Shown here piece by piece: positions 1 through 58,936 of a stretch of 64,000 nucleotides of DNA. The notes below the pieces were generated by a model, which saw nothing but the letters and a program-made list of their open reading frames with translations, was not told the DNA's origin and ran no database searches. The first letter of the stretch is position 1; each line of letters starts with the position of its first letter. Position numbers and translations under genes: made by a program. Source of the DNA: Selaginella tamariscina (lineage: Eukaryota > Streptophyta > Lycopodiopsida > Selaginellales > Selaginellaceae); assembly GCA_003024785.1 (NCBI GenBank), contig PUQB01000273.1, forward strand, positions 62,001-126,000, given 5' to 3'.

Positions 1-10
1 CCATGTTCCG

Positions 11-334
11 GTGCAGCTGAAGACACCAGAGGTGGAGTTCTCTGGTAAAGCTTTGGTGGATAGCGGAGCGAACGCAAATTTCATCGACAAGAATTTTGCT
101 GTCAGGCACGGGATCCGTCTACATCCTTTGAAGACTCCTGGTTCTGTACGGGTCGTTGATGGACGAGATATCAAATCTGGAGCGGTAATAAATGACACGG
201 AGTTCGTTGAGGTCGTTGCTTGCGGTGCTGTGTGCAACATCTCCTTCAGTGTTTTTCTATTCCAGACTCTACGATTATCCTTGGTTTGCCGTGGATCGAG
301 TTGGTGGATCCTGGTTGGAGAGAACGTTTCATGA
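11..334 (+). pseudogene. Element A retropepsin-like protease fragment
   Basis: The frame contains LVDSGANANFID, the retropepsin active-site region, with Asp-Ser-Gly in place of the usual Asp-Thr-Gly. The flap and second strand follow up to about 290, where a frameshift moves the ILGLPW motif into the next frame (from about 270). In an intact element this enzyme would cut the Gag-Pol polyprotein inside the particle. It is cut by the window start, so its upstream joint to gag is unknown. Confidence 0.75.
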
Positions 335-479
335 ACAGTTTCCCAGCTGTTTCAACTCCAGCCACACTCTTTGATTCCGATCCTGTTCCAGTTCCTCCTC
401 CACTTCGAGTCTCGCATATCACCTTGAAGCAGTTCAAGAAAGATAGCCGACATGACCCAGCATCCGTGTTCGCGATCAA

Positions 480-1330
480 AGTCTATCCCTGCTCTGCTAA
501 GGATGTTTCTGTTCCTCCTGCCTTACCAAAGCAGTATGCCGATTTCGCAGACGTCTTCGACAAAAAGAAAGCTTCTGCCTTGCCACCGCACCGTGAGTAC
601 GACTGTCCTATCGATCTCGTTGAGGGTAAGCAGCCGTCCTCCGGTCCCATTTACGGTCTCTCACCAACAGAGTTGGAGACATTGAGGAAATACATTGAGG
701 AGAATCTTGTCACCGGATTTATCCGTCATTCGCGATCACCGGCTGGTGCTCCAGTATTCTTTGTTTCCAAGAAGGATGGAAGTCTCCGGCTCGTGGTGGA
801 CTACCGAGATCTGAATAAGGTCACCATTCCAAACAAGTATCCTCTCCCGCTCGTCTCCGACATGCTCGAACGTCTTTCTGGTGCCCGGTACTTCACAAAG
901 ATCGATTTAAGAGGAGCGTACAATCTCATCCGAATTCGAGAAGGGGACGAGTGGAAAACAGCTTTCCGTACACGCTACGGACATTTCGAGTACGTAGTAA
1001 TGCCGTTCGGCCTGACAAATGCACCTGCTGTGTTCCAGCACATGGCTAACGATATTTTCGGGACTTCTTGGATTTGTTTGTCATCATGTACCTAGACGAC
1101 ATCCTGATATTTTCCAAGACTCGAGAAGAACACGAACGGCATGTACGGTTAGTCTTGGAGAGGCTCCGGAAGCACCACTTGTTTGCCAAGTTGGAGAAGT
1201 GCTCTTTCAGTCAGCAGTCTGTCGAGTTCCTGGGGTACATCATTTCAGCTGAAGGTGTTCACATGGATCCTGCAAAAGTCCGGACTGTATTGGAGTGGGA
1301 GAGACCATCAAATGTTCGTGATGTTCGATG
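480..1330 (+). pseudogene. Element A reverse transcriptase
   Basis: Ty3/gypsy RT blocks appear in order: the [17 protein letters not shown] entry segment, the [19 protein letters not shown] block, [33 protein letters not shown], the [13 protein letters not shown] block, then YLDD (near 1088-1099) and the SVEFLGYIIS thumb segment. A single missing base near 1065 separates the FGLTNAP block from the catalytic YLDD block, which itself is intact. The role would be synthesis of cDNA from the element RNA. Confidence 0.9.
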
Positions 1331-1379
1331 TTTCCTCGGGTTTGCGAACTTCTATCGACGTTTCGTTCGGGATTTCTCC

Positions 1380-2000
1380 AAGATTGCATTGCCATTGACG
1401 AAGTTGACTGGCAAGGATGTTCCATTTGTCTGGTCCTCTGAGGCTGAGGAGGCGTTCGAGTTCCTAAAGAAGGCGTTCACCTCGGCACCTGTTCTTATCC
1501 ATCCTGACCCTGCGAAGCCATATTTCGTGGAAGCTGATGCCTCTGACTTCGCCATTGGTGGAGTGTTGTCCCAGGAAGGTCCAGATCATCTTCTCCATCC
1601 CATTGCTTTCCATTCCCGCAAGTTCACTGCACCTGAGATCAACTACGATGTCTACAACAAGGAGCTGCTGGCGATCGTCGATGCCTTTGAGGAGTGCGCA
1701 GATTCCTTGAAGGTTCCCCGCATGTGGTTAAGGTGTATTGTGATCACAAGAACCTCCAGTACTGGGCAACAGCACGAGTTCTCAATCGACGTCAGGCGCG
1801 ATGGGCACAGTCTTTGTCCCGGTTCCGATATAAGATTATTCATCGTCCCGGTCGTCTAAATGGCAAAGCAGATGCCTTATCTCGTCGCAGTTACCTAGCT
1901 CCAGTACCAGGTGAAATCCGATTTGATCAACAAGAACAAGTCATCCTGAGCTCCGACCAGTTGTTGAACGCGCTTTCCCGTTCTTCTGCTCCAGTTGACA
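1380..2000 (+). pseudogene. Element A RNase H and RT-integrase linker
   Basis: The segment [15 protein letters not shown] carries the first catalytic Asp of the gypsy RNase [34 protein letters not shown] follows in shorter blocks, with the catalytic Glu in the NKELLAIV block. A frameshift near 1705-1720 moves the [10 protein letters not shown] and GKADALSRR blocks into another frame (to about 1890). This domain would degrade the RNA strand during reverse transcription. Confidence 0.85.
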
Positions 2001-3131
2001 CTTCTTTTGGATCTAATCCGAGAAAATCTCCCTCAAGACGAGTTTGCTCGTGATGTCCTTGCACATGTTCGACGAGTTCAGCCATTGTCTTCAGGGTCAC
2101 AACTACGAGATTATGCTGCTTTCCATCTTCATAATGGGTTGCTGTACCACCACATCCAAATCTATGTTCCGGACGGAGAACTGAGGTTGCGAGCTGTCCA
2201 ACACTGCCATGACAACACAGCTGCAGGACATTTTGGCATTCGGAAGACGATCGAGCTGGTACAACGGGTGTTCTGGTGGCCTCGGCTTCCGTGTATGTTG
2301 AGAGATTTGTGCGATCTTGTGACACGTGCCAGCGTACAAAGCTTCCTCGTCATCGACCGGTTGGACTACTACAGCCTCTTCCTATTGCTCAGCGGCCATG
2401 GTCATCCATCACCATGGATTTCCTCACGGATTTACCGCCTTCTAGAGGGTTTGATGCTGTCCTAGTCATTGTTGATCGGTTCTCTAAGATGGCGCACTTT
2501 GTTCCCTGCAACAAGACATGTTCGGGTCCTGATGCTGCAGATCTGGTGTACCGGGAGGTGTTCCGTCTTCATGGTCTTCCTGATGAACTTGTCACAGATC
2601 GAGGTCCCCAGTTCACTTCGGCATTCTGGCGGAGATTCCTAGATCGGCTACGTATCACCAGGAAGCTGTCTACTGCACATCATCCTGAAACAGATGGACA
2701 ATCGGAGCGCACGATTCAGACTCTGGAACAATATCTGGTGTTTCATTTCTCATCTGCAAGATGATTGGGTCGATCTCCTTCCTGCTGCCGAGTTCGCGTA
2801 CAACAACACGGCACACTCATCCATAGGTGTGTCGCCATTTTTCGCGTTCTCTGGTGTTCATCCTCTCTGGTCCTACAGCTTGCCGTGGTTCCTAGCCTCA
2901 CCACTGTTGCCGATGATCGTGTTGAGACAGGTCCATGAAGAAGTGCAGCATCATCTTCAACGCGCTCGGGATTTGCAAAAACAAGCTGCTGATCGTTCCC
3001 ATGTTCCTCTCCTAGCATTCGCAATTGGTGACCAAGTGTGGCTCCTCCGGCGTCATTGGCCAACCACACGTCCCTGTGACAAGCTGGACTATCAACGCTT
3101 GGGACCATTTCGCATCATCGACAAACTCTGA
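2000..3131 (+). pseudogene. Element A integrase
   Basis: The zinc-binding His-His-Cys-Cys module is visible as HCHDN/GHFG and then SCDTCQR, split by a frameshift near 2290. The catalytic core carries TMDFLTDLPPS (first Asp), TDRGPQF (second Asp) and DGQSERTIQTLEQYL (Glu). Another indel near 2745 shifts frame before DDWVDLLPAAEFAYNNT. The C-terminal KLDYQRLGPFRI segment ends at a stop near 3131. In an active element it would insert the cDNA into chromosomes. Confidence 0.9.
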
Positions 3132-3481
3132 TGTGAGTTTCATCTCGAGCTTCCGCCAACCATCCGGATCCATCCCATATTCCATGTTTCCTTGTTGTAA
3201 CGTTTCGTCTCGAGCTTCCGCCAACCATTCGGATCCATCCCGTATTCCATGTTTCCTTGTTGGAGCCTTATCATGCTCCTTCTGAACCTGGCCGACTTTT
3301 TCCACCACCTCCTCCAGTTACAGTTGCTGGTGAACCTGAGTTCGAGGTTGCTGCAATTTTTGACTCCAAACTTATTCGTGATCAGCTTCACTATTTCGTG
3401 GACTGGATCGGTTATCCACCTGGCGAACGCACTTGGGAGCTTGCTACTCATGAACAAGCGCATCATCGACAAACTCTCTGA
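3132..3481 (+). pseudogene. Element A chromodomain, first copy
   Basis: The segment LEPYHAPSEPGR, a proline run, VAGEPEFEVAAIFDSKL and then YFVDWIGYPPGERTW matches the integrase C-terminal chromodomain of chromoviruses, including the aromatic and W-x-Y core. A partial upstream duplication (about 75 bp, 3135-3203 against 3207-3275) repeats the FRLELPPTIRIHP-coding segment just before it. In related elements this domain steers integration toward modified chromatin. Confidence 0.8.
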
Positions 3482-3530
3482 TGTGACGTTTCATGAACAA
3501 GTGCATCATCGACAAACTCTCTGATGTGAC

Positions 3531-4130
3531 GTTTCGTCTTGAGCTTCTGCCAACCATCCGGATACATCCCGTATTCCATGTTTTCTTGTTGGAGCCTTAT
3601 CATGCTCCTTCTGAACCTGGCCGACTTCTTCCACCACCTCCTCCAGTTACAGTTGCTGGTGAACCTGAGTTTGAGGTTGCTGCAATTCTTGACTCCAAAC
3701 TTGTTCGTGGTCAGCTTCACTATTTTCGTGGACTGGATCGGTCAGCTTCACTATTTTCATGGACTGGATCAGTTATTCACTTGGCGAACGCACTTGGAAC
3801 GGTCAACTTCACTATTTTCATGGACTGGATCGGTTATCCACTTGGCAAGCGCATCATCGACAAACTCTCATGAACAAGTGCATCATCGACAAACTCTCTG
3901 ATGTGACGTTTCGTCTTGAGCTTCTGCCAACCATCCGGATACATCCCGTATTCCATGTTTTCTTGTTGGAGCCTTATCATGCTCCTTTTGAACCTGGCCG
4001 ACTTCTTCCACCACCTCCTCCAGTTACAGTTGCTGGTGAACCTGAGTTTGAGGTTGCTGCAATTCTTGACTCCAAACTTGTTCGTGGTCAGCTTCACTAT
4101 TTTTGTGGACTGGATCGGTCAGCTTCACTA
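3531..4130 (+). repeat. 377-bp direct duplication of the chromodomain-coding end of element A
   Basis: The block starting GTTTCGTCTTGAGCTTCTGC at 3531 recurs at 3908 almost unchanged, giving a period of 377 bp. Each copy encodes the LEPYHAP-to-DWIG part of the chromodomain. As 377 is not a multiple of three, the copies are read in different frames. The short segment encoding HHRQTL is also repeated at the copy edges (3456-3480, 3500-3525, 3850-3900), which may be the pairing sequence used in the duplication. Confidence 0.85.
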
Positions 4131-4357
4131 TTTTCATGGACTGGATCGGTTATCCACTTGGCGAACGCACTTGGAACGGTCAACTTCACTATTTTCATGG
4201 ACTGGATCGGTTATCCACTTGGCGAACGCACTTGGAACGGTCAACTTCACTATTTTCATGGACTGGATCGGTTATCCACTTGGCGAACGCACTTGGAACG
4301 GTCAACTTCACTATTTTCATGGACTGGATCGGTTATCCACTTGGCGAACGCACTTGG
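4120..4357 (+). repeat. 61-bp tandem repeat inside the chromodomain motif
   Basis: About four near-identical copies start at 4120, 4181, 4242 and 4303, each covering the LHYFMDWIGYPLGERTW coding stretch. Two further copies lie in the first 377-bp unit (3741-3845). The period of 61 bp rotates the reading frame at every copy, so a protein reading through would contain the chromodomain core only in every third unit. Confidence 0.9.
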
Positions 4358-4526
4358 AAGCCTGCTACTCATCTTGTTGCCGAGTTCCATCAACGAGAAC
4401 TCGGCAACGATATCCTGCAAAACTTGGACCAGTGACGCGCGATGCATCGAAGCCTACTCATCTTGTTGCCGAGTTCCATCAACGAGAACTCGGCAACGAT
4501 ATCCTGCAAAACTTGGACCAGTGACG
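4356..4526 (+). repeat. About 93-bp duplication of the pol stop-codon region
   Basis: The terminal coding stretch LVAEFHQRELGNDILQNLDQ plus stop is present at 4370-4437 and again at 4460-4526. A partial third copy covers the ENSATIS-frame segment at 4527-4555. The first copy gives the natural C-terminus of the element A polyprotein. Confidence 0.75.
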
Positions 4527-4689
4527 CGAGAACTCGGCAACGATATCCTGGATAAAAAGACTCAAGCGTAACTAAGTCATCATGACCAGGGACCCTTTCA
4601 TAAACACCAATTGACCCTTTGCTTAATTGGCATAAGGGGAGTAAAGAGGGGTCCTTGTGCAAATAAATTAGTGATCCCTCCGTCTTTCT

Positions 4690-11777: not shown

Positions 11778-13094
11778 ATGTATTCGATTTGCTTCGTCAT
11801 TCTTTGTGCTTCATTCCTAGGGCTTGTGGCTGCAAGGAATCCGGCAGTTCCAGTTTGTCCGAAGCCGAGCTTGAAGGAATCGCTGCTGCCGATTGTAGAT
11901 CAGTGCCCCAGCTTCACCAGAATCGCTCCTCAGAGGGTCTGGTCAGATGCCGCCTCCATTGTTGTCGTGGTAAGTTCATAATAATATAATAACACTCGAG
12001 ATACGACTTTATCAAAAGATATAAGAAAATGCACAAAAATCAGAAACGATTTTGTATCATTCGCTACAATGATAATATAATGAGAAGATAAGACATATAT
12101 ATACATGTGTATATGGATATAAATTTAAGAAAGTTTATGAGCTGTTTAAATGTTTGCAGTCAAACGAAGCGGACTTGGAGCAGGTTTTGAAAATGATTCG
12201 TAATAACAACGAGAGTTTTGCTGCAATGCTATATTACGCTTCATGGTGTCAATTCTCCAACCAGCTCCGGTCTGTTTTTGAGTCACTCGCCACTGTGTTT
12301 CCTTCCGTTTTACATGTAGAGGTTGAAGAGTCGTCAATCAGACCGGGGTACTGTTTTATTCCTTTTTAAAGTTTGCTTATGTATCTGTAGGTAGATGCAC
12401 ACACAATAACGTATGTGTGCTGTCTGTTAGGTGTAGGTAGATATATTTTAGCGAGATTTTCTAAATACTTTATTCATTTGCAGTTTGCTCTCGAAGTATG
12501 GTGTGTACAGCTTCCCGGTGTTGTACATCCACACTGGGGCCTCCAAGTCGCGTTACTCGGGTCCACGAACTATGAAGAATTTAGTGAATTTCTATGTCAA
12601 TATCACAGGTATGTATGTTCATACTCGATAGCATTTTCACGCGTACGATTTATCTTTGGTATCACATTCATGAGAGAGAGAGAGAGATTGGTTATATTTA
12701 CTGATTAGTGTATACAGGAATTCAGCCGAGAAAGATGAAGATGCAGGAGGTTAAACCACTGCCAGCAGAGACTGGGCTATCAGAGAGGCTACAGAACGAT
12801 ACGTACTTGGTGCTAGCATGCTGGTTCCTGATATTGAGAGTACTGTTCATGGTCCTTCCAGTCGCAGTGAACAGGATGAAGAATTTCTGGAATAAGTTGC
12901 ACATATACAAGATGATGCTCAAGCCGAGGGGGCAGAACGATGTTCAGGGTGTTGCTGACAGGTCGTCGAAGAACAACAGGAGAAGGCTCTCTGTCCCTGG
13001 TTGGTCTCATCAGATTACCTCTCCGTCTTCTTCACTGGCGATTGCTGAGAGTCGTGCGAGAAGAATAGCTCCACCCGAAGATTTGATGAGGTAG
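11778..13094 (+). CDS. 5'-adenylylsulfate reductase-like (APRL) protein
   Basis: Four exons, 11778-11969, 12160-12347, 12484-12608 and 12718-13094, join without interruption to 293 residues plus stop. The start at 11778 is chosen because it gives a signal peptide (MYSICFVILCASFLGLVAA); an in-frame ATG at 11679 would bury it. The thioredoxin-like domain spans about residues 65-170, with AMLYYASWCQFSNQL at the active-site position and a YGVYSFPVLYIHTG strand carrying the cis-Pro. The active site keeps a single Cys (WCQFS), as in the family, so disulfide exchange like a classical CxxC thioredoxin is not expected. A membrane helix (LVLACWFLILRVLFMVL) lies near residue 210, followed by a basic tail. 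Plant APRL proteins lack the sulfate-reductase domain and have no firm function; location is likely the secretory pathway. The frame is fully intact. Confidence 0.9.
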
Positions 13095-13631
13095 TTTGTA
13101 TTTGAAACACAATTCTGTATTCTATATGCACAAAAATACAGTTACATTCTTCATCTGTATATCTTTCTACGTGTTTGTGTGTGGGTGAGGTAGTTTTAAT
13201 AGGGTTAAGTGTTTGGATCTTAGCTTTTCCTGATTCATGTAGTATATGAGCTACGATTTGCCTGTAGACATAACACAACCGATGTAAACACGGACACGAA
13301 TGCACACACCTATTTAAGTGTATTTGTGTATATATGTATGAGTTTCTCCTTGTATTTTTCTGATGGTGGTGTGTCAATTGTCTCTAGCGGTGCTTCATGT
13401 CCGTGTGTTATTAAAACGACGGTATTCACACAATACATGTGAGAGGTCGTGACATATATACATAGTAATATAATTATATGTTACATCGTAAAATGTGTAA
13501 TGCAATATACTCTGACCATAGTTTTGGATGGGATGCAGATACACAGGTTGATACACTATTTGTAACATAGCATGGATTTCTTTTATAGCTGCTCTGAAGT
13601 TTCCCACAAAAAGTTGTACCAAGAAAGAAAG

Positions 13632-14598
13632 CTAAGGTGAGTTTTTCCTTTCAGAGTGATTTTTAACATTTGTACGCTGCCTCCATTTAGCACTAGTATT
13701 AGTTGTAGTAGCTTCGGTATTCGGAAGCTCCGCAGGTAATGCAGTAGCAGCATTGCTGAATGCATCTAGCAGTAGGAATGCTAGAATCGGTGAGAAGTCG
13801 AGTGTGCCCCAAGTGGTGGGATTATCCCTCGAAACAGGTTCAAGTACGGATCCGTCACGGTGCTGCATAAACAAACATGTTCATGGGATAGTTTACAATA
13901 CGGGATCTGAGAGGACCAATGAACTCATAAAGAGAGATCATGTTCTAACAAAGGTCATGTTGGGGATTTGAGAGAGGTATGGACTTTCATGACACTTTTT
14001 AAGGGTACCAGGCTGGGGATCGATGGGGATCTGAGAGACGTACCTGATGGGATTGACAATCGCACGAGGAGCATCCGGGAACCAAGTACAGATAATGCGG
14101 ACGATGAGGACCGCGTTATAGAGGGAGAAGAAGTTGGTGAGGCCCCTCGTTACCACGAGTTCCGCAAGTGAGTCTCCTGGTATAATTGCAGCAAAACTGT
14201 GAGTCCTAAGCGGAGTAAACATTCTCACCCGAGCTGTCACCTGCATCAATATGGTTTATTCAAACATCTGCATTTTATAATATTATGCAGATGTCGTGCA
14301 TAGATTTACATTACTCTTCTAATCACACTTTCTGAAAAGAAAACACACACGCGTTCCATACCTGGCGAGCAGTGGAATGTAAGTGGTGAGGAAGAAATGC
14401 CTTAATCTGTGGAGGTAGTGTAGAGAGGGCAGCATCGAGCCTTCGCTGGAGCTCAGAGACGTGAAATGCAGCGGATTGAATAAGAGGATGCTCCAGAACA
14501 TGCGCTCCCTGTGTGTTTCGCAATTGAGGACGCGGGAAGAGAGCGAGTAAAAGGTGTGCTCCAGATTTATGAGCGGCACCGCCATTGCCCTGCGCCAT
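13632..14598 (-). pseudogene. YlmG/YGGT-family chloroplast membrane protein, frame broken by one base
   Basis: Three minus-strand exons: 14598-14362, 14240-14044 and 13862-13632. Exon 1 encodes a basic, Ser/Ala-containing N-terminus that could include a plastid transit peptide. Exon 2 carries the first YGGT helix (FFSLYNAVLIVRIICTWFP followed by DAP and IVNPI). Exon 3 carries TDPYLNLFRGIIPPLG and, after the break, GTLDFSPILAFLLLDAFSNA. One G is missing in the run encoding PPLGG (13812-13815), so the second half lies in a different frame; all else, splice sites included, looks sound. Members of this family sit in plastid membranes and affect thylakoid and nucleoid organisation. Either a recent pseudogene or an assembly error. 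It is convergent with the APRL gene. Confidence 0.8.
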
Positions 14599-14639
14599 AG
14601 CTCAAACTTTGATCCCTTAAACCCTAGATTATAATTTAA

Positions 14640-17045
14640 TATTTTTTATTTCATATACATACATTTTCATATTATTTTTCCAATGCATATGAAATATTTA
14701 TCATGGAGTTACAATAGATTCAAATTGGAAGTTTCAATGGAAATTGACTTATTTACAACATAATATATGCACCTTATTTAGGATTGCCAATGTTAAATAA
14801 TAGTTTAAAACATGTTGTAAATTAATTTAACAATTAATATACGTTGTAAATCATTTTCAACAATTTTAATATTAAAATATTTCTACATGGAAATTCATTT
14901 TGTTGAAATTATTATAACTATTATAACAATTGTTTTTAACTTTCATGTGCTATTATATTCAACATTCTTTATAGTAACTTACATATATTAGGGAAAATTC
15001 TCTAAATAACCTACAATTGACCTTATTAAAAAAAAATTCCTGGCTGTACAACGTACATGTACATGCGCACACAGGTATGTATATAACAGTGTAACAGGTA
15101 GGCACATTGTACAGTGTTAAAACATATACAAGAGGTTATAGTTTTCTAATCATAATATATATTAATTTCTACCATAAGAGTATATACGTGTGTGTGCATG
15201 ATACCTCAAAGATTATATTATGTAAATGTATTGACTTTCAGTATATGATAACGTGTGTGTGTGTGTGTGTGTGTGTAGGTGTAGGTGTGGTGACAATATC
15301 AATTATTCGTAAACATTATATATATGAAAGTATATATGATATGACATTTTTTATTGGTCTTTTTCTGTTTTTATTTTGTGCAATGTAGTATGCATTCGTA
15401 ACAATAATATGTACATTAGAACCTGTCTAAAGTAATAATACTATGGAAAACAGCACTTTTATAATTGAATTAGGTTGATTAATAATACATATATTTTATG
15501 ATTGTGCCTGGAATTTTAATTAATAAAGTGTGTACTAAAATATTTATACAGAGGTGAAACCATAGTGACTAGATCATTTTTTAAACACGATAACATTTAA
15601 CATTTGTTGTTAAACTAACATGTTACAGTTCTGAAATAATATTAATGACATGAAGTTTGATATTACCTTGTAGGATATGTAGAGTATGTATATATATGTA
15701 TGTATAGAATATATGACTTAAACTTGTTGTGTATAAAGATAGACAATGTTCTTAACCTTTGGCTAAACATAACACAGACATGCATAAAACTAAACACACC
15801 CGGCACCTTTAATGTGTAACAACATCCTAGATAAACACAAACATTTAAACACACTCCTTTTTCTTATCGAAAACTTATAGTTACCTGTTTCACATAAACT
15901 AACATATCCAAATGAAAACGAAATGCTCAGTTTAATGTGTTGAGGACATATAGATGTATTAAAGTTCATTCATTTAATCAACATATATACACAATGATGG
16001 TTAAATATAATGCAAAACTTTATGAAATATAGTGGAAATATTATATATGAAAAGCTTTATGAATAAAAAATTCTTGAGATGTTTATAAAGTTATGTGTTA
16101 ATTGAACTTTTATACATTTATAGATTTGCACTTTTTAAACATGCACATTAATGCATCGAAACGTCTGGCTTAGATCAAATCTGGTTTAAAAAAAAAGTGC
16201 AATGTGTTGCCTAAAAGTAACAATCTGTCACCTAAAATTAATAAATCACACATTTTAAATCATACTTGAACATCATTAATTATACCATGGCACATACCAT
16301 GATTATGATATGGTCATCAACGGTCGTATTGTATGTCCTTACTATTTGATTGAATAATTAATCAATTTAATGACTGTCATTTTACACTGTATGTGGTTCA
16401 TAAAGTGACACATTATTAACTAAATGAATCATACATGGATGAACATGTCTATTTAAAAGTTTTTATTTATATTGTAAGTCATCCACATTTTATTTGTGTA
16501 TCTTTACAAATTTAGACTGTGAATTTGATGTGTCTCTGTAATCCAACTTAAGATAAATTCATGTGTTATTTAATGCATTAAAATTATTTTAATTATTAAA
16601 TTAAATGAATGAATAATCCATATCTCATTGAGTAAAATTATGTTTATTATTAGATTTAATTAGATTAAATGGTGAAAATTGTTGGATTTAAAGTTTAGTT
16701 TATGAATGCATTACTCAATTAGCATAATTAAAAAATATAAAAACATATTTTTTCATATAAATGAATAAGTTTTCACTAATTTTTTAAAAATTTTTAAAAA
16801 GATATTACGAATGAATAATTTATGTAGTGAATATTTTATGTTATTATACAAAGATTAAATAAATTGAAATTATCTTAGGTGTTCATTTGCTTTACTTTAT
16901 AACCCATTATAACATTTATGTTAGTAATATAAATAATATTTAAAAATTTCTCATTCTTTTGAAAGAGTTTTATATTACTAAATAAAAAAAACAATTTCAC
17001 GTACTTTCATTGTTATTTATTATATCAAAGAAATTAACAATTATT
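14640..17045. other. AT-rich intergenic stretch, no gene seen
   Basis: About 2.4 kb of very AT-rich DNA with no coding signal I can support. It includes a short (GT)n microsatellite at 15253-15277. The ORFs in it are short and compositionally like the surrounding DNA. Confidence 0.7.
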
Positions 17046-20011: not shown

Positions 20012-20024
20012 TTGGTATCGGAGC
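20012..20024 (+). other. Primer-binding site of element C (tRNA-iMet-like)
   Basis: TTGGTATCGGAGC begins two bases after the LTR. TGGTATCAGAGC is complementary to the 3' end of plant initiator tRNA-Met; here one base differs (CGG for CAG). Element F has the same variant, so it is ancestral to this family. This marks the first base copied by reverse transcriptase. Confidence 0.85.
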
Positions 20025-24479: not shown

Positions 24480-24906
24480 TAAAACCCCCACCCCTTGGGT
24501 AGGGTTTAGGGGTAGGATAAGGGTGAGTTATAAGCTCATATTGCTAATTTGTCTAAGGGGCTAAAATTCAGTGCCAGCCCACTAACACATATAGGAAAAG
24601 AGGGGGGGGGGGGCTCCGTCACATAAAATAAGGTAGAGTATACATAGGAGAGCTCCTGGGTTCATGAATGAGTTCGTTGCTCTTCTGCCGGTGCAAGCTT
24701 CAGCTTGTGTCGTTAAGGTACAACCCTTTGTTGTGCCGCCCTAACTTTCAGATGCCAGGGGTACGTCCCACCTTCGGGTAGCTTACCCTTAACGTTGGCG
24801 AATCCATGCCTGGGAGGTCTTGACGAAATGCACGTTCCAAGAGGCAGAGGTTGAGGCTTGTCTCCAGCCTCCTCCTCCACGTCAAGCTAGGTGTAGCACT
24901 CACAGC

Positions 24907-25427
24907 TGTCACAACCCGATGCAAGATACAGGATTCCGGATACAGGATACAGGATGCAGGATTTCGGATACAGGATACGGGTTACAGGATATGCCTGTAG
25001 GATATTCCTACAGGATATACCTATAGAATATTCCTATAGGATATGCCTATAGGATATGCTAGAGGATAAGGGACACTATTCTTAGCTCATGACTAGATTA
25101 GACTCATGACTATAGCTTGGAGTTGTGAGCATAAAAGCTCCGACCTAATTGTTTGACAATCAGTTACTATCAACACCAGTCATTCTACGATTATTCTTGT
25201 TCCTTGTTCTTGTCTTGTTCTTGTCTTACTCTTTGCCTCCTGCTCCTGTCTTGCTCCCGATCCTATCCTGTTCCTGTCTAGCTCCTAGATCTGTCCTGCG
25301 TCTTGTCTTGCTCCTGAGTTCCTAGTTCCTGTCTTGTTTCCTATCCTACACTCGGTCCTGTTCCTGAGTCAAGCCTTCCTATTCTTGGAATCCTACTCTC
25401 TTCCTGGTTCCTGGATCGGGCTTGACA
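24907..25427 (+). repeat. Left LTR of element D with TATA box and predicted transcript start
   Basis: The first 150 bases are packed with AGGATAT/ACAGGAT words. A TATA-like CATAAAAGC lies near 25130-25138. About 31 bases downstream of the TATA position is CAGTTACTATCAA (25161-25173), the expected 5' end of the transcript, which pairs with the primer site just outside the LTR. The second half is pyrimidine-rich with repeated TCCTGTCTTGCTCC-like words. Confidence 0.85.
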
Positions 25428-25429
25428 GT

Positions 25430-25442
25430 TTGATAGTAACTG
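25430..25442 (+). other. Self-complementary primer-binding site of element D
   Basis: TTGATAGTAACTG, two bases after the LTR end, is the exact reverse complement of CAGTTACTATCAA at 25161-25173 inside the LTR. It does not begin TGG, as a site for a tRNA 3' CCA end would. The same arrangement is present in E, G and I. Confidence 0.8.
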
Positions 25443-28271: not shown

Positions 28272-28865
28272 TGTCACAACCCGATGCAGGATACAGGATC
28301 CGGATACAGGATACAGGATGCAGGATTCAGATACAGGATAACGGGTTACAGGATATGCCTGTAGGATATTCCTACAGGATATACCTATAGAATATTCCTA
28401 TAGGATATGCCTATAGGATATGCCTAGAGGATAAGGGACACTATTCTTAGCTCATGACTAGATTAGACTCATGACTAGATTAGCTTTGGAATTGTGAGCA
28501 TAAAAGTTCCGACCTAATTGTTGTACAATCAGTTACTATCAACACCAGTCATTTCTAAACGATTATTCTTGTTCCTTGTTCTTGTTTTGTTCTTGTCTTA
28601 CTCTTTGCCTCCTGCTCCTGTCTTGCTCCCGGATCCTGTCTTGCTCCTGTCTTGTTCCTGGATCCGGTCCTGCGCCTTTCCTATCTTGCTCCCGGATCCT
28701 ATCCTGTTCCTGTCTAGCTCCTAGATCCTGTCCTGCGTCTTGTCTTGCTCCTGAGTTCCTAGTTCCTGTCTTGTTTCCTATTCTACACTCGGTCCTGTTC
28801 CTGAGTCAAGCATTCATGTTCTTGGAATCCTACTCTCTTCCTGGTTCCTGGATCGTGGCTTGACA
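28272..28865 (+). repeat. Right LTR of element D
   Basis: 594 bases, same borders as the left LTR (TGTCACAACC to TTGACA) but about 70 bases longer in the TCCTGT-rich half, so the two LTRs differ by an indel in that repetitive section. Contains the same TATA-like box and CAGTTACTATCAA. Confidence 0.85.
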
Positions 28866-29957
28866 ACGGCCAAGCAAGGCACATCCCGTGTCCTTGTCCA
28901 ACTGTGGGCGTGGGATCTTGTTTGACAGGTTCACGTTACCTAGTTCCTGAGGGTTCATTGAGGGGTTCTAGAGTTGGTTTAGGAACCACGTTTGTGGTAC
29001 TTGGTGCAACTCTTGAATCTAAGGGCTAATGGCATGATAGCCCACATCATGGAAGGCAGTGTCACATGGAGATTGACACTGGGCTAAACGTCACATGTAC
29101 AAACGCCCGAGGCACACCCTTTGGGGTTATGTCATGGGCTTGTCGCTAAGGGGTTGGATACTCTAGCAAACAGGCATGCTTGGTGCTTGCACTAGGGTGC
29201 TAAGCCTTGGGCAAACTGCTCAAGGGAGGTTAGGTCTCGTAACAGGTGTGCTTTGGCACACTTGGCTAGGGGAGTGTTCTCCTTGGAAATCCAGGGGTTG
29301 AACAACCTAAGCTCATTAGCAGAAGCCCTTTCGTAAGGCACTCGCAAGGTCATGTGCTTAGGGTTATCCCAAACCTAGCCTTAGGAGTTTGCTTAGCAGA
29401 ACACTCGTGTCCGCCTACGGCGCACACTCGTGTCCTCACCAAGTACTAACCCTAGGTCTAGGGTATGACTTGGCCACTCAAACCCTTAGGGGTTTGTCGT
29501 GGTTCAGGATACCCTTGTCGCCCTAAAGGGGTTGTACTCCCGGATGAGGGTGATTCCCAAGGGGGAGTGACGATGCCTTAGCTCTGTCTAGGGGTATGTG
29601 TGGAACACACGTCTCCTTGATGGGGGTTAGGGCATGAGCCTGTCTAGGTCTTCTAGGGCCAGACCCTAAGTCAACTAGGGTTATCCCTCAAGGGTTTTGG
29701 GGGTAGACACTCTAGGGAGACTTAGGCTAAACCCTAAGTCAACTAGGGTTATCCCTCAAGGGTTTGGGGGCAGACATTCTAGGGAGACTTAGGCTAAACC
29801 CTAAGTCTCCTGTCCACTTGGGCATTAGAGTCTAACCCTAGGGGTCGTTGGGGTTGTTCTGGGAAACTTAGCGTTGCTCACACAGGGTGATGACGCCGAA
29901 TGGCCACCTGGCAGCCACGTGTTGCCACGTGTTGGCCCTTTGGTTAAAACTTTGACA

Positions 29958-30250
29958 TGGATGCAGGTTCCCAAGTGCGATTAGTAAGCAAATAACCTTT
30001 CCAATCCACCAAGTATTGGAGTTGGCGGCGATAAAGACGAGAATCCAGGATGGCTACAACTTCGTACTCAGGTTCAGTGTCAATGACCACAGGAGGGGAG
30101 GAGAAGAAGCACGACCAGGAAGAGAAGAAGGATGATACGGCTTCAACAAGGAGGTGTGAAACACAGGATGAAGTTTCACCGTAGATGGTAACTCGAGTCG
30201 GAAGGCTACAGGATTGACCTCCGCCACAATCTTATAAGGGCCCAATCGTT
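29958..30250 (-). pseudogene. Element E chromodomain, truncated
   Basis: EPEYEVVAILDSRL followed by LQYLVDWKGYLLTNRTWEPA ends at 29958. In G and D the same domain continues for about 30 more codons to a stop, so the break is inside the domain's last helix. Confidence 0.85.
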
Positions 30251-31490
30251 GAAAATCCAAACTTAGAAGAAGGCATGTTGGTGCGAATATGTCGACGAAG
30301 AAGCCACACGAGATCACCAATCTTGTATGCAGGTGCCGACTGACGGTGAGCATCAGCATGATGCTTGTATCGTTCCTGTGCCTACTGAAGATGAACCCGG
30401 AGATCATCCTGTACCTGACGAAGATGCTGGAGACGATCCTGTACTGCAGGAGCGGAAGAAGGAGAAGTGGGAGGAGCAAAGTCAAAACGTGGATGGTGAT
30501 CTGTAAGAGCAAAGAAAGGTGTTTGTCCTGTAGATGCGTGAACGGAGTTGTTGTAGGCAAACTCCGCCATTGGAAGAAGGTCCAACCAGTTGTCCTGCTG
30601 GTAACTGATGAAGCAACGAAGATACTGTTCCAAGGTTTGAATTGTGCGTTCGGACTGCCCATCAGTTTGCGGATGATATCCTAAAGAAAGATCCTCTTTA
30701 ACCTGTAGACTCCGAAGAAGCTCTCGCCAAAACTTGGACATGAATTGTGGACCTCGATCGAAAACAATGCTCTCAGGAAGACCATGATGTCGGAACACTT
30801 CACGGATCACCAACTCAGCAGTTGTCTGACCTGTAGTTGTCTTGTTGCAGGGTAGGAAATGAGCATGCTTAGTGAAATGGTCAACCATCACAAGAACTGC
30901 ATCGAATCCATGAGAAGGAGGAAGATCTGTGAGGAAATCCATAGAAATGGATCTCCAAGGAGCAGAAGGAACAAGAAGAGGACGAAGAAGACCAAAGGAT
31001 GCATGATGAGGCATCTTCGACCTGTTACAAGTGTCACAACTTCGTACAAACCTTTCCACAAAACCTCACAACCAGGCCACCAATAGTTGCGAGTCACCAA
31101 CTCCACTGTCTTGGCCACACCCAAAATGTCCTGTAGCTGGGGTATCATGACAATCCTGTACCACACGAGTCCTGAAAATACCAATAGGAACGTACAGGAG
31201 ACCTTCCCAGTACATGAGTCCATCCTGTATAGTGAACAACTTGTAGTCTGAACGGGAACTGGAGGAAGAGGAACTTGCAATGTCAGGATGAATGTGTGAG
31301 AACACATTCTTTGCCAAGTCGTCTGTAGCCAACTGCGAACAGACGTCCTGTAGGAGTGTTGAATTTGCTGGAGCCTGATGAACCTGCAGTGCCGTAAGCC
31401 GAAATTGATCAAGACCCAACAACACTTGCCTTTGACAGTCATATGCAGGATCGCCCGGGCTTGGTGCAAGATAAGAGCGCCTAGACAATG
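30250..31490 (-). pseudogene. Element E integrase
   Basis: The zinc module ([12 protein letters not shown], then SCDTCNRSKMP) spans about 31150-31010. The core carries SMDFLTDLPPS, a second Asp in FDRGPQF (usual: SDRGPQF) and TDGQSERTIQTLEQYL, in one open frame 31059-30382. The C-terminal FQRLGPYKIVAEVNPVAF segment comes after a frameshift. An IN of this quality could still be translated from a read-through transcript but lacks its chromodomain end. Confidence 0.9.
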
Positions 31491-31499
31491 CGTCCGCCT

Positions 31500-32800
31500 T
31501 GCCATTCCGAAAATCGGGCCTGTAGACGATGACAAAATCAAAACGTGATAGGAACTCCGCCCATCTAACCTGTCACCGACTGAGAACTCGAGCCGTTTGA
31601 AAATACTCCAGGTTCTTGTGATCCGTAAGAACTTGTACAGGATGTGCAGCACCTTCCAAGAAATGCCGCCACTCCTCGAACAAATCCACAATGGCCTTGA
31701 GTTCCTTGTCATGAATCTCGTAATTGATCTCCGCCGAAAGGAACTTACGAGAGTGAAAAGCTACAGGATGAAGCAACTTGTCTTCTCCAACTTGTGATAG
31801 GACAGATCCTACTGCAAAATCCGAGGCATCTGCTTCAATGAAGAAAGTATGAAGGGTCAGGATGTGCTAAAATTGGAGCTGTCGTGAAGGTGTCCTTGAG
31901 TGTTGTGAACGCATGTTCCGCCTTGTCGGACCAAGAGAAAACCCTGTGCGCTTGGTGAGTTCCGTGAGTGGAAGTACACGCTTGGAGAAGTCCTGTATGA
32001 ACCGCCTGTAGAAGTTTGCAAAGCCAAGGAAACATTGTACATCTCGTACCGACTTGGGCCTCTCCCACTCCACGATGGTCTTCACCTTGTGCATGTCCAT
32101 GGAAACGCCAGCAGGAGAGACGATGTAGCCCAAGAACTCCACCGAATCCCTATCGAAAAAACACTTCTCCAACTTCGCGTACAGGCCATGCTCGCGAAGC
32201 CGCTCTAGAACTAGTCGTACATGCTTGTCATGTGCCGCCTGGTCCTTGGAGAAAATCAAATGTCGTCGAGGTAGATCACCACAAACTGGTCCAAGAAGTC
32301 ACGAAAGATGTCGTTCACCATGTGTTGGAACACGGCTGGGGCATTGGTAAGGCCGAAAGGCATTACCGTGTACTCAAGTGTCCATACCTTGTACGAAAGG
32401 CAGTCTTCCACTCATCGCCGGGACGAATCCGTACAAGGTTGTAGGCCCCTCGTAAGTCGATCTTCGTGAACACCTTTGCTCCTCGCAGCCGATCGAGAAG
32501 TTCCGGGATCAATGGCAACGGGTACCGATTCCGAATGGTGACTTGATTCAAACCCCTGTAGTCCACAACCAAACGTAAACTCCCATCCTTCTTCTTGACA
32601 AAGAAGATAGGCCTCCTGCAGGGGACTTTGAGTGACGAATGAAGCCGGATGCCAAGTTGTCCTCGATGTACTGACGAAGAACCTCCAACTCTGTGGGTGA
32701 CAATGCATAAATCGGTCCGAATGGTGGAGTCTTTCCTTCCGCAAGATCAATAGGACAGTCGTAGGACCTGTGAACAGGAAGAACTGCAGCCTTGTGCTTG
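31500..32800 (-). pseudogene. Element E reverse transcriptase and RNase H
   Basis: RT blocks in order include [40 protein letters not shown], then [13 protein letters not shown] and VIYLDD. One base is missing directly after the YLDD codons (near 32260), so the active-site block is out of frame with [14 protein letters not shown]. The thumb (SVEFLGYIVSPAGVSMD) and the RNase H blocks ([48 protein letters not shown]) follow. Confidence 0.9.
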
Positions 32801-32809
32801 TCAAAAACG

Positions 32810-33800
32810 TCCTTAAAGTCGTGATACTTGGATGGTAGGGAAGAAGGAGGAGAAGGAGAAGGAGAAGGAGAAGAGAAGGAGAGAGGATTGAAAAACAGGA
32901 GCGGATACAGGAAAGGTAGAAGAGGACGTAGGAGTTACTTGAAAGGCAAAAAGGTGGAAAGGAGCAGGATCAGTGGCGAGTTCATGCATGGTAGTGGTAA
33001 GAACTCGGAGAGGAGAAGGAGGGAGCTGTGACTGAAAAAGAGGAAGGATCTTGGGGGTGGAACAGAAGCAGGGTAACAGAAAGAGGCAGGATTGGAAAAA
33101 ACCTGTGTGGATGTTGACGAGTGTACAGGATTGGAAGAATCCTGTACAGGAGTCCGTGGTTGCGCAGGAGTGGGAAAGCCTGCGAATGTGCTGACGAATC
33201 AACAGGAGGTGGATCCTGTTGAGGAGGAACCTTCGACACTGATACAGGATTGGAAGAACCCTGTACAGGACAGCAAACTTACAGGAGTGGAGAGAGCCTG
33301 CGGATGTGCTGAGGAACTGACATGAGGTGAATCCTGTCGAGGAGGAGTCTTCAACACTGGTACAGGAACAGGCACGGTCAATCCTGTAGCTTGTACTGCC
33401 TCAGATACTAAGGATGTATCCTGCACACAGGAAGGTACAGGATTGATCCTAGCTGTCGGAGAGGAAAACGTGAGCGTCCTAGACCTCCAGTCGATCTGCG
33501 GATTTGCAACAACGAACCATGGCATGCCCAAAATGATGGGAGTCGACCGAGTCTTGATCAAGTTGAAGGAAATTGAACAGTTGAATGTGCCATACTGCAG
33601 GAGAGAGGTTCGGTAGCATGGGTAACTGCGCCAGAAGCAATCAGACGCCCATCGGCCACCTCTACAGGAACTGCACGCTTCAACTTCACCACCGAAATGC
33701 CATGTTGAGTTGCAAACGTGTCATCCATGAAGCATGCATTTGCACCAGTGTCTAACAAGGCAAACTCCATGAGCTCTCGATTATTAAGATGAATGTGTAC
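32810..33800 (-). pseudogene. Element E protease and Pro/Ser linker
   Basis: LLDTGANACFMDDTFATQHG with an intact Asp-Thr-Gly lies at about 33765-33700, and the second conserved block IILGMPWFVVANPQIDW follows at about 33540-33490. Between about 33440 and 32820 lies a low-complexity Pro/Ser/Val linker encoded by ACAGGAT/TCCTGTA-rich DNA, with a GAAGGAGAAGGAGAA purine run at 32850-32880. Confidence 0.8.
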
Positions 33801-33859
33801 AGGAAACTTAAGTGATGGGATGGTATGAGCAGCACCAATGGAGCCTGCACCTACGTCCA

Positions 33860-34829
33860 ACTTCGCGGCTCCTAGACGAAGTGGACATTGAGTTTTCCGA
33901 CTGAACTTCAGCTTCAACTTCACGCGTCTTGAAGTTCCTGGCTTTAATAGGAAATCTGCCACCTTGTGTCCTGCTCCACCACAATACAAGCACAGGTTCT
34001 CACTACGACGTTGCTTCTCAGCAGCGGAAAGAGAGCCACGCTTGGATTTCTCAACCTCCATAGGAACTACTCCAGAAGGTGTGCAGGAACATGTACCACA
34101 GCTGCAGGATTGGTTTGCAGGAACTGCTACGGGATCTTTCCTGACGACGCTCGAACAAACGGTTGTCGCAACGAACAGCTTGTTGCATGATCTCTGCTAA
34201 TGTTTGGGCATCCGGTAACGTAAGGAGAAGGTCCTTCACGTCATCCCTCAACCCAAAACGGAAGTGTTCATCAATGCAGTCTCGTCCCATGGAATGTTCG
34301 TGCAAAGTTGCTGAAATTCGGATGCATAGACGGAAGCTGGTCGGGATCCTTGAGTGAGCTTCCGTAACTTCGTGCATGCAGAACGGTACTTATCAGGATC
34401 TCCAAACAGGCTTCAAAGGCAGCCACGAAACCTTCAAAGTCTTCCATCAATGGTGTCACGCTCCAGCAAGGGGGCAACCCAAGCCCGTGGAGATCCACTT
34501 AGTAAGGATGCCAAAAGGCCAACCTTTGTGCATCAGTCGAGTAGTGCGTGGTTGCATACGGATCAAGAGCGGATCTGATTCAGGAAACTTGGAAATCCGC
34601 ATATTGCCACCGAACTTTTTGGGCATGCTGAACTTCGATTGAGAAGAAAAGTTCGATGAAGAAGGAACCACCGATGCCTGAGAGAGAGCCTGCGCAGCAG
34701 CCTTGGAGGGATGCATCAGCAGCTGCATGTGCCGCAGGTGGAACCTTGCATCGGTGACCACTTGGCGCAAAGTGGCCAGCTCATGAAGAACATTTGGTGC
34801 TCGCGTTGAAAGCGCTCAAAATCAGCCAT
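33860..34829 (-). pseudogene. Element E gag
   Basis: The start ATG is at 34829-34827 (MADF). Capsid-like segments WVAPLLERDDPLMEDFEGF-type and LTLPDAQTLAEIMQQAVRCD are spread over three frames. The zinc knuckle is CLYCGGAGHKVAD: the final Cys is lost at an indel near 33955. About 25 bases upstream of the ATG the sequence is purine-rich rather than coding. Confidence 0.8.
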
Positions 34830-34903
34830 GATCTAGGAAAGAAAAAGGAGGAAAAAAGGAAAAGAATCAAAAAAAAGTAGCTGGAAAACGAGAACTATGA
34901 AGC

Positions 34904-34916
34904 AGTTACTATCAAA
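34904..34916 (-). other. Self-complementary primer-binding site of element E
   Basis: Minus-strand TTGATAGTAACTG, two bases beyond the LTR, exactly complementary to the CAGTTACTATCAA at the predicted transcript start inside the same LTR. Confidence 0.8.
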
Positions 34917-34918
34917 CT

Positions 34919-35496
34919 GTCAAGCCACGATCCAGGAACCAGGAAGAGACAGGATTCCAAGGACAGGAAGGCTTGACTCAGGAACAGGACCGAGGCAGGA
35001 CAGGAACTAGGAACAGGAGGAAGACAGGACAGGATAGGATCCGGGAGCAAGACAGGAAGGATAGGACAGGATCCAGGAACAAGACAGAACAGGACAGGAT
35101 CCGGAAAGATAGGAGCAGGACAGGAAACAGGAGAGACAAAGCAGGACAGGAAACAAGACAAGAACAAGACAAGACGAGATTGATCGTAGTAAGACTGGTG
35201 TTGATAGTAACTGATTGTACAACAATTAGGTCGGAGCTTTTATGCTCACAACTCCAAGAGCTAATCTAGGCATGAGTGCTAAAAGTGGTTGCATGCATGC
35301 AAAAGTGACTGCATGCATGCAGAGGCTAAGATGAGTCCACATGTCCCTTATCCTCTAGGCATATCCTGTGGCATATCCTGTAGGAATATCCTGCAACCGA
35401 ATCCTGTGTCCGGAATCCTGGTAGGAATATCCTGTAGGAAATCCTGCAACCCGTATCCTGTATCCGGAATCCTATATCCTGTATCGGGTCGTGACA
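34919..35496 (-). repeat. 5' LTR of element E
   Basis: 578 bases, minus-strand start TGTCACGACCCGATAC and end TTGACA. It includes the AGGATAT array (35345-35490 side), a TATA-like box (minus CATAAAAGC at 35241-35249), the predicted transcript start (minus CAGTTACTATCAA, 35213-35201) and the TCCTGT-rich half. Confidence 0.85.
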
Positions 35497-44290: not shown

Positions 44291-44303
44291 GCTCCGATAC
44301 CAA
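44291..44303 (-). other. Primer-binding site of element F (tRNA-iMet-like)
   Basis: Minus-strand TTGGTATCGGAGC, two bases after the LTR end, the same one-mismatch variant of the initiator tRNA-Met site as in element C. Confidence 0.85.
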
Positions 44304-46654: not shown

Positions 46655-48960
46655 TGTCAGAAACCAAGTCGAAATAAGCTGGATTACAGAGATCAGAACA
46701 AGACAAGAGGCTTAACTCCTAAACTGGCATTGAACTGGAATACTTAACCCTAACTGCATCCACTCTTATATACTATAAGAAAAGCCAAATCTGGACTTAA
46801 CTAAATTTAGTGACCCTTATTCTTATCCTGGACTTGGCTAAATTTAATTATTCTTATCCATATTTTATATGTATATGTATATGTATCCTTATCCATATCC
46901 CCCTTCTCAAGAGCCAAGCTTGTCCGGATACCTACGATGAAACTCATTAACAACATCCCAAGCATGTTATAAATTTGTTACGGGTACGTTCACTTGGAGG
47001 GTAGCCAACCCAATCAACCTAGTAATAGAGTCGGTAGCAAAAGAACTTGAAGTCCAGGATTTTGTTGACTTCATATTCCAAATCATTATCAATTGTAACT
47101 AGAGCTGGATGTGGTAAAGTTTCATCAGGAAGCATGTTCAGATGGTATGGCTCAAGAAAAAAACATGGAATATCGAATGAATGTGCATCAAAGAAGGAAT
47201 CTCCAGCCAATAAACCACATCGTTGATATGAGATGCCATCAGAAACGAGTCGAGGCATTGTAGTCAAACTTTTCACAAGGTCACATAGTCTTGATATTGC
47301 ATCGAAGAAGCCAGACTTGTTCACTAACCTAATAAATTGGATTGTCTTTATGATATTGATCAGCATTTATCTTTTGATGTTCTTGTGCCTCTAGAATATG
47401 TTGATGAAGTGTAACTTGGACATATTGAAGATGGTCAAGTCGATCTTCGGTAAATGGATTTATTGAACTCTCAAGTGTATCAAAACTCCATCATGAATGT
47501 TGACCTGTCAAGGCATAGAAGGGTGACATATTAGTTGAGGCATGCTTAGAGTTGTTGTAGGAGAACTCAACTAAGGGCAATAGCAATAACCAATCGTACT
47601 ATTGGTAATTGATGAAGCACCATAAATACTTTTGCGAGTCTAGATAGTGCATTCCAATTGACCATTAAATTTTGAATGATAACCCAAAAATAATGACCTC
47701 TTAATTTTGAGTAGCTTGAGAAGTCATTGTTAAAACTTGGTAATAAACTGTAGACCATGATCGCTGACAATGTTGTCAGGGAATCCATATAGCCGAAAAA
47801 TGTTCTTCATAACTAAGTCAATTGTCTCTTCACTAGAAATAGTTTTCATACACGGTAGGAAGTGAGCCATCTTAATAAAATAGTCCACAACGACGAGAAT
47901 ATTGTCAAATCCTTAAGTTGGTGCCAAATCATTCATAAAGTCCATTGAGATGCAAGACCAAAGCGTTATTGGAGCTGGAAGCAGTTGAAGGAGACCATAT
48001 GGGTGATGACAGAGTGAGTACAGATGTCACAAGTACAAATAAATTCTTTCACTGATTGGCATAGTTGGGGCCACCAATAGTTATGGCTGATTAGTTCCAC
48101 TGTTTTTGTAACGCCAAAGTGATTAATAAGCGAGTATTATGATGAGATTGTAGCACTTAAAGTTGAGCGTCACTTGGTGGAATATAAACCAAGTTGTTAT
48201 GGAGAAGCATACTATTAGCGAATCGGAACAAATTATAGTCAAGTTGTGAGACAAATGGAGTGTTACATGCAAGGTGACTCAAGATATCTTGAGCTAGTGG
48301 ATCGAAGACAAGTTTAGAGTGGATAGTGTCAAGAAGGCCGGAGTCAAAGGGTGTAACATGAATGGCGAGTGCTTGGAGGTGTTTAGATCAAGTACCACTT
48401 GCTTTTGTTGGTCAAACTTGATGTCACCATACACTCATTGTGAAAGTGCGTCGAATTGAACTTGTTGAGTGTCGTGTTGATACTTGATCTTGAAGTCAAA
48501 CCGAGAGAGGATCTGATGGATCCAACAAGCTTAACATCGATTTAAAACTTGAGTCTGAAAGAAGTAAATCAAGTTCTGATAATTAGTGAAGATGGTTACC
48601 TTGTGCAGGGAGCCTTCAAGAAACCTTCAAAAAACCTTCACCACTCTTGGAAGTAATCCACGATAACTAGAAGTTCCTTGTCATGAATCTAATAGTTGAT
48701 CTTTGTAGCTGTGAATTTGCACGAGTAGAATGCTACGGGTAAAGATCATTGTCGGAGCCATACTAATAAAGAATACCACCTAAAGCAAAGTTAAATCCAT
48801 CTATCTCCATCACAAAGGGTTTGGATAGGTCAGGGTGAAGCAAGATCAAAGCCGAGGTAAAAGCAAACTTGAGTGTGATAAATGCATTCTCAACCTCCAA
48901 CAACGATTTTCAGGATCATAAACCACGAGATCAAAAAATCATTGGTTTAATGTACACATT
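46655..48960 (-). mobile_element. Element K: ancient gypsy pol fossil with putative 3' LTR
   Basis: Minus-strand blocks remain recognisable despite many stops. The integrase core has SMDFMNDLAPT, VVVDYFIKMAHFLPCMK and GFPDNIVSDHGLQF (about 47960-47730). The integrase end has FFLEPYHLNMLPDETLPHP with DLEYEVNKILDFK (47160-47040). RNase H and RT traces reach about 48960. A purine tract (CTTGAGAAGGGGG, 46917-46905) is followed on the minus strand by about 250 bases ending GGTTTCTGACA at 46655, a plausible 3' LTR. Clearly older than A, D, E, F or G. Confidence 0.8.
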
Positions 48961-52440: not shown

Positions 52441-52444
52441 TAAC

Positions 52445-56702: not shown

Positions 56703-57077
56703 TGTCATGACATGATACATGATGCAGGATTCCGGTTACATGATATAGGAGATACAGGATATGGGATACAGGATATGCTCACAGGATATGCTCACAGGAT
56801 ATGCCTATAGGATATACTTACAGGATATGCTTATAGGAATACCTACAGGATATGCTACAGGATATACCTTTAGGATAAGGATCACCATTTTAGCTCATGA
56901 CTAGATTAGGCTCATGACCAGATTAGCTTGGAGTTGTGAGTATAAAAGCTCCAACCTAATTGTTGTACAATCAGTTACTATCAACACCAGTCATTCTACG
57001 ATCATTCTTGTTCCCTGTTCTTGTATTGTTTTTGGAATCCTATTCTTTTCCTTGTTCTTGGATCGTGACTTGACAGT

Positions 57078-57089
57078 TTGATAGTAACT
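57078..57089 (+). other. Self-complementary primer-binding site of element I
   Basis: TTGATAGTAACT after the LTR pairs over 12 bases with the start of CAGTTACTATCAA at 56972-56984. A consensus TATAAAAG box at 56941-56948 lies 31 bases upstream of that stretch. The final base of the 13-base site found in D and E has mutated (G to C). Confidence 0.8.
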
Positions 57090-57176
57090 CCTTTCATAAC
57101 TTTCAGATTTCTAGCTACTTTTTTTTCCCTTGATTCTTCTCCTTCGTTTTCCTCTTTTTTTTTTCTTTCATAGATC

Positions 57177-58482: not shown

Positions 58483-58936
58483 TGTCAAGCCACGACCTAA
58501 GAGCAAGATAACAAAAGAAGGCTTGACTTAAGAACAAAGCAAGAGCAAGGAACAAGACAAGAACAAAGAACAAGACAAGAATGATCGTAGAATGACTGGT
58601 GTTGATAGTAACTGATTGTACAACAATTAGGTCAGAGCTTTTATACTCACAACTCCAAGCTAATCTGGTCATGAGTCTAATATGGTCATGAGCTAAAAAT
58701 AGTGACCCTTATCCTTTAGGCATATCTTGTAGTATATATCCTATAGGCATATCCTAGGAATATCCTGTAGGTATATCCTGTAGGAATATCCTGCAGGCAT
58801 ATCCTATAGGTATATCCTATAGGCATATCCTGTAGGAATATCTTGCAGGCATATCCTGTAATATATCCTGCAGGCATATCCTGTAATATATCCTATAGGC
58901 ATATCTGTAACTCGTATCCTGTATCCGGTCGTGATA
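58483..58936 (-). repeat. 3' LTR of element G
   Basis: 454 bases. The minus-strand start is TATCACGACCGG (TG mutated to TA) and the end is TTGACA. It has a long AGGATAT array (58720-58915), TATAAAAGC (minus, 58646-58638) and CAGTTACTATCAA (minus, 58614-58602), exactly 31 bases apart. Confidence 0.85.

Follow-up and report, generated by a model that had tools for sequence, protein, structure and literature searches.

Four chromovirus copies, here called D, E, I and G, were found in the window (the whole stretch of 64,000 nucleotides analysed), and they are most probably Tf1/sushi-type, plant Tcn1-like elements that would prime minus-strand synthesis with their own RNA, a reading to which we assign a probability of about 0.92. 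The LTR of each copy contains the 13-mer CAGTTACTATCAA about 31 nt past a TATA-like box, and the reverse complement TTGATAGTAACTG is located at the PBS position, 2 nt (GT) beyond the CA end of the 5′ LTR. The two sites are complementary at all 13 positions in D and E and at 12 of 13 in I, and in G they form 13 pairs, one of them G-U. This agrees with the first-pass annotation of this DNA, except that the E PBS, placed there at 34904-34916, is located one position lower, at 34903-34915.

The priming events may be depicted as follows: Transcription would start at or beside the 13-mer in the LTR, some 31 nt past the TATA-like box, and the first 12-13 nt of the RNA would anneal to the PBS, located 2 nt past the 5′ LTR. 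The RNase H of the element would then cut after ...TCAA, and the short RNA released in this way would be extended through the GT and on into the end of the LTR. Every new copy would have its PBS refreshed from the primer, and such a proposed refreshment would keep the two sites matched.

Element D is 3.96 kb long and located on the + strand, with the 5′ LTR (TGTCA...TGACA) at 24907-25427, the TATA-like box CATAAAAG at 25130-25137, its first base 31 nt before the C of the primer, the self-primer segment and putative RNA 5′-end at 25161-25173, the PBS at 25430-25442, and the 3′ LTR at 28272-28865 with a second primer copy at 28530-28542. Its 5-bp target-site duplication has one mismatch (ACAGC 24902-24906, ACGGC 28866-28870), and identity between the two LTRs is 97.9% (519 aligned sites). 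Compared to E, about 2.2 kb of pol is missing from D, and since its LTRs are nearly identical and a target duplication is present, D may be a non-autonomous derivative. Element E is on the − strand and comprises the 5′ LTR (34918-35496), the self-primer segment (35201-35213), the PBS and, at 29958-34196, coding remnants in broken frames recognised by Pfam rve, tblastn and open reading frames: a protease-like part (below the Pfam cut-off), RT, RNase H, integrase and a chromodomain region.

Element I, on the + strand, has its 5′ LTR at 56703-57075 with the primer at 56972-56984, and the PBS at 57078-57090 is changed to C at the 13th base. Element G, on the − strand, has a 5′ LTR that is cut by the window end (63809-64000; primer 63910-63922), a PBS at 63794-63806 in which one change yields the G-U pair, coding remnants for RNase H, integrase, a Tf2-type SH3 and a chromodomain at 58948-61291, and a 3′ LTR with an approximate outer boundary at 58483-58936 (primer copy 58602-58614); the LTR identity is 97.4% over 191 sites. 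G is probably nested inside I at about 58485, because the G 3′ LTR ends where the homology to I stops, which would imply at least two rounds of insertion.

By allowing up to two mismatches, a scan of the window with the 13-mer returned 12 matches, compared to 2.2 expected by chance. The exact matches, with the match strand in parentheses, were 25161-25173 (−), 25430-25442 (+), 28530-28542 (−), 34903-34915 (−), 35201-35213 (+), 56972-56984 (−), 58602-58614 (+) and 63910-63922 (+), and the one-mismatch matches were the I and G PBSs at 57078-57090 and 63794-63806. The two-mismatch matches at 8017 and 14968 had no link to any LTR. The longest complement between LTR and leader was compared to 1000 dinucleotide shuffles of each LTR and exceeded the shuffle maximum in D (13 versus 11), E (13 versus 10) and I (12 versus 11); in G, whose LTR is truncated by the window end, the longest exact complement was 10, which 2 of the 1000 shuffles reached. 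The primer's best partner was the PBS (within 1 nt) and the PBS's best partner was the primer in all four copies. Across six aligned LTR copies, 26 columns from ACAATCAGTT through CACCAGTC were invariant. In the 300.7 Mb assembly (1391 contigs), the 13-mer was present in 2468+2482 copies, versus 1+7 for the reversed control.

A tRNA-type TGG start was absent near the LTR in D, E, I and G, as the first-pass annotation had stated, the first TGG being located 89-104 nt beyond the LTR. Rfam and tRNA scans of the window returned no matches. For the E family, a genome-wide search for TTACTATCAA in tRNA-like context (a T-loop motif at most 30 nt later) gave 0 occurrences, with 1+1 for the reversed control. 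Two other LTR elements in the window display ...TGACA-AT-TGGTATCGGAGC at the equivalent position, one at 44291-44302 (−), 2 nt after the LTR of another family, and a related one at 20013-20024 (+). We take TGGTATCGGAGC to be a site of the tRNA-Met type. The family is a high-copy one (40 copies scored of 967 first-look candidates, 20 fetched). The 2-nt spacer is common to the tRNA-type and the self-matching elements, and the difference between them is thus the content of the PBS.

The frequency of the two sites was estimated from E-type 5′-ends picked by a 181-nt gag match, independently of the primer and PBS sequences. Out of 1707 first-look candidates 40 were scored, one of which was E itself. 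Both sites were present in 39/39 of these 5′-ends, with a perfect 13/13 in 32; five of the imperfect copies carried PBS changes at positions 12-13 only and two carried primer changes. The copies are 96-97% identical in gag and therefore represent those nearest to E. The TATA-to-primer distance of about 31 nt given by the first-pass annotation was 31 nt in D and in 19 of 20 other copies, and 30 nt in the remaining one. Both sites were retained while the distance between the matched windows ranged from 100 to 385 nt among the copies compared. Loci that had been picked for exact 13-mers (8 + 20), and a further 40 surrounding exact 13-mers for which in most cases no neighbouring partner was listed, are biased sets and were not used for rates. 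The first-pass annotation had suggested a search for compensatory changes among the copies. Such changes were looked for within the E family and not found; one-sided variants, with one site changed and the partner canonical, are common among the copies compared, which counts against within-family compensation and fits decay after insertion.

Compensation is evident between families. Element A, whose pol occupies 1-4571 (+), belongs to a second chromovirus family. Its PBS and the end of its 5′ LTR fall immediately beyond the window, at G000:C586:60550-60950 (L127), and display a self-primer of its own. The family A primer is the 13-mer CAGAATCATTCAA, with the matching PBS TTGAATGATTCTG after GTGACA-GT, and in three copies the order of the 5′ LTR is a TATA box followed 29-30 nt on by CAGAATCATTCAACACCAGTC. 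The A and E primers differ at 5 of 13 positions, and all five differences are compensated in the PBS. The two LTRs share little: blastn gave five matches, 8-15 nt in length, of which TCAACACCAGTCTT (14 nt) was the best. Cross matches are at most 5 nt for the E PBS against the A LTR and at most 7 nt for the A PBS against the E LTR. The longest complements in three A copies were 13, 13 and 12, versus shuffle maxima of 11, 12 and 11. D, E, I and G are homologous and hence do not constitute four separate tests; family A is independent evidence for self-priming that they alone could not give.

Of 1091 first-look candidates for family A, 40 were scored, with approximately 100% identity over 885 nt, and 24 of the 40 were examined. 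Both sites were present in 24/24 of these 5′-ends and were exact (13/13) in 14. The ten imperfect copies comprised six with a change at PBS position 13, one without a PBS base, two with other PBS changes and one with a changed primer. In two of the three A copies checked for it, TGG occurs 13 nt beyond the LTR, where the PBS has its far end; it is probably not a tRNA site, the scan for tRNA context having covered the E family only. The near identity of all 40 scored copies over the 885 nt indicates that A was amplified very recently, and tandem repeats, seemingly of the chromodomain region, abound at the 3′-end of the A pol (window 1-4571; G000:C738, L096, L099). A catalogue search for primers of the form CAGV...TCAACACCAG gave 472 genome matches compared to 5 for the control. 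Among the first 100 of these matches, 88 were the A primer and 12 differed (E-like, A-like and one other), and no further matched family was found among these 100.

The third related chromovirus, the 47k element (46913-48897, −), is old, and weak self-complementarity was seen in its relatives. Four copies of 41 matches were fetched, and an LTR pair was present in two, in neither of which an exact complement of at least 9 nt was found at the PBS. One of them showed 9/13 complementarity, with all four mismatches being transitions, and in the other a bulged helix was seen by eye. The self-complementarity of this old family (L100-L107) may have decayed.

Folding predictions for RNAs cut at the PBS were dominated by the primer:PBS helix in D, E, I and G as well as in A. 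Most primer:PBS pairs had predicted probabilities of approximately 0.9-1, both in these four copies and in family A. The exceptions among the four were I, which lacked the first pair, and the innermost pair of D and E (0.56-0.58). When 130 nt of leader were added to G, the primer helix dropped to 0.23-0.38 in competition with a U5 stem. In the predicted folds of I, G and A the helix is longer: AC and then GTC, which directly follow the primer, are also paired, with the GT of the spacer and the GAC of the LTR end. This extension, which was not predicted in D and E, leaves a bulged C at the expected cleavage point. A U5 hairpin spotted by eye was unsupported in most foldings: the predicted probability of the U5 stem-loop was 0 to 0.08 in 8 of 9 foldings of D, E and G and 0.65 in one, and the stem-loop was absent from the foldings of I.

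The extended stem bears on one alternative, namely that the inverted match has some other role, for example as a hairpin in the RNA that serves packaging or the control of translation, and that priming proceeds by another route, since a predicted stem joining the LTR end and R in I, G and A could serve packaging. Against it, the match coincides with the PBS position and is set off from the LTR by 2 nt just as in the tRNA-type family, it lies near the predicted transcript start, and the A junction varies precisely at the 5′ edge of the primer; we regard this alternative as very unlikely. Slightly less probable still is that a tRNA of the host, or an internal fragment of one, pairs with the PBS, the LTR match being incidental. 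Precedents exist in the half-tRNA primers reported for some plant copia lineages (PMC6317226) and in the tRNA-Met PBSs reported for two Selaginella Galahad elements (PMC3350952). Against a tRNA primer stand the 89 nt without TGG after the LTR in D, E, I and G, the missing tRNA-like context of TTACTATCAA across the genome, the tRNA-type family with its own site at the equivalent place and two families whose different PBSs each match their own LTR.

The same pair of families bears on a match that arose by chance, or once in an ancestor, and was inherited without function by all copies. D, E, I and G belong to one family and are not independent, as this explanation would have it, but family A has an equivalent arrangement, its sequence being different and its LTR having no more than short matches to that of E, and the explanation is so improbable as to be nearly negligible. 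Self-priming from the RNA 5′-end is retained as the preferred reading. The element is a well-supported case of a self-priming kind predicted previously, and the mechanism proposed is very likely right.

If the PBS is rewritten from the primer, its outer edge may hold traces of the process. In family A (n = 24), the bases between TTGAATGATT and GTAGTGACAAGC were CTG in 6 copies, CTAG in 6, CTGAG in 4 and CTGG in 3, with CTGA, CTGCG and CG once each, one altered PBS (L130) and one unread copy (L134). At least seven junction forms are thus present among near-identical copies, at the 5′ edge of the primer, in surroundings with 7 substitutions in 22 positions × 24 copies on the left flank and 1 in 33 positions × 23 copies on the right. 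In the tRNA-type family the junction was identical in 20/20 fetched copies; the window copy at 44291 agrees with these and the one at 20013 differs. The E family (n = 39) displayed CTGCT in 25 copies, CTGC in 7 and seven single forms, which is weaker evidence since the right flank of E is itself polymorphic. Each new copy's PBS would be rewritten from the RNA 5′-end, and start-site or cap-derived extra bases would be kept. Tentatively, and at somewhat less than even odds, the capped 5′-end of the self-primer may be recorded in the genome as the 3′ edge of the PBS; the variation could also have another origin, for example a small number of diverged source copies. If the record is real, the RNA 5′-ends and strand transfer of self-primed elements would be readable from genome sequence alone.

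Pfam searches identified RVT_1 and RNase H in A and rve in E and G, and in G also RNase H, Integrase_H2C2, SH3_Tf2-1 (PF24626) and Chromo (PF00385), the latter two above the cut-off. Named proteins from vertebrates, fungi and amoebae were 49-58% identical to the G integrase core, versus 44% for an angiosperm protein. An integrase-core tree of 23 rows placed E and G, with weak support, in one group with unnamed proteins and the window elements A and 47k. Descent from the Tf1/sushi group is graded only as likely, because 10 of the 20 inner forks of this tree were open, the angiosperm row was not separated and the rows included no Tf1, sushi or Tcn1 references. A PDB search gave no matches with gag and Ty3 as the best match with integrase. 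In the viral and prokaryote collections no relative was found, the searches returning 1 (unconfirmed), 26 (none confirmed) and 0 stretches; five further stretches from these collections were taken as chance, about 7 being expected for an 18-mer in 257 Gb.

The genes of the window identify the host as a plant, the two joined exons of ylmG giving one match, to Selaginella moellendorffii, with 51% identity. The last exon of this ylmG-like gene (13300-14650, −) appeared by eye to be frameshifted, through either a pseudogene or an assembly error. Exons at 12076-12708 (+) presumably belong to an adenylylsulfate-reductase-like gene and one at 52358-52690 (−) presumably to a small heat-shock protein, both by eye.

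The first-pass annotation had proposed self-priming of the Tf1/sushi type and knew of no established case in land plants. The complementarity, the TATA spacing, the lack of a tRNA PBS, the SH3 and chromodomain and family A all support the former, but the claim of novelty does not hold. Neumann et al. (2019; PMC6317226) had already predicted self-priming for most plant Tcn1-clade elements, of moss and club-moss, which lack a tRNA PBS, and for the TAR copia lineage (Houba, Osr-1). Their criterion was complementarity over 10 bp or more, beginning 0-5 bp from the LTR; here the complement is 13 bp and starts 2 nt after the LTR in two families. The between-family compensation, the copy counts unselected for the sites and the PBS junction pattern are added to these predictions, and the first and the last of them were not seen in print in the open-access literature searched. 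In that literature plant self-priming has so far rested on sequence prediction, no biochemical demonstration in a plant being found, and two high-copy families with different matched primers beside a tRNA-type family provide a clean test bed.

Among the known systems, Tf1 of Schizosaccharomyces pombe resembles the elements described here in that the first bases of its RNA are complementary to an LTR-adjacent PBS, and the SH3 family of G carries the name of Tf2-1. The Tf1 primer consists of 11 bases from the RNA start, with cleavage between bases 11 and 12 (review PMC7175516), versus the 12-13 nt proposed here, and the U5 stem-loop reported for Tf1 is only weakly predicted here. For Tj1 of S. 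japonicus, the complementarity of its PBS to the mRNA 5′-end likewise led self-priming to be inferred, but its host is a fungus and it is described as active in a transposition assay (PMC4600332). The TAR copia elements Houba and Osr-1 share the prediction of self-priming in plants, but are Ty1/copia and not chromoviruses (PMC6317226). By description, the plant Tcn1 clade is like the present elements in being Ty3/gypsy with a chromodomain, in lacking a tRNA PBS and probably in occurring in non-seed plants, and its member SM-Tcn1 of S. moellendorffii shares the TG...CA LTRs, the 5-bp duplication and the T-rich leader. Novikova et al. (2010; PMC2864245) found neither tRNA priming nor self-priming for SM-Tcn1, whereas self-complementarity is clear here in two families, which may help to explain the apparent lack of a primer site in SM-Tcn1.
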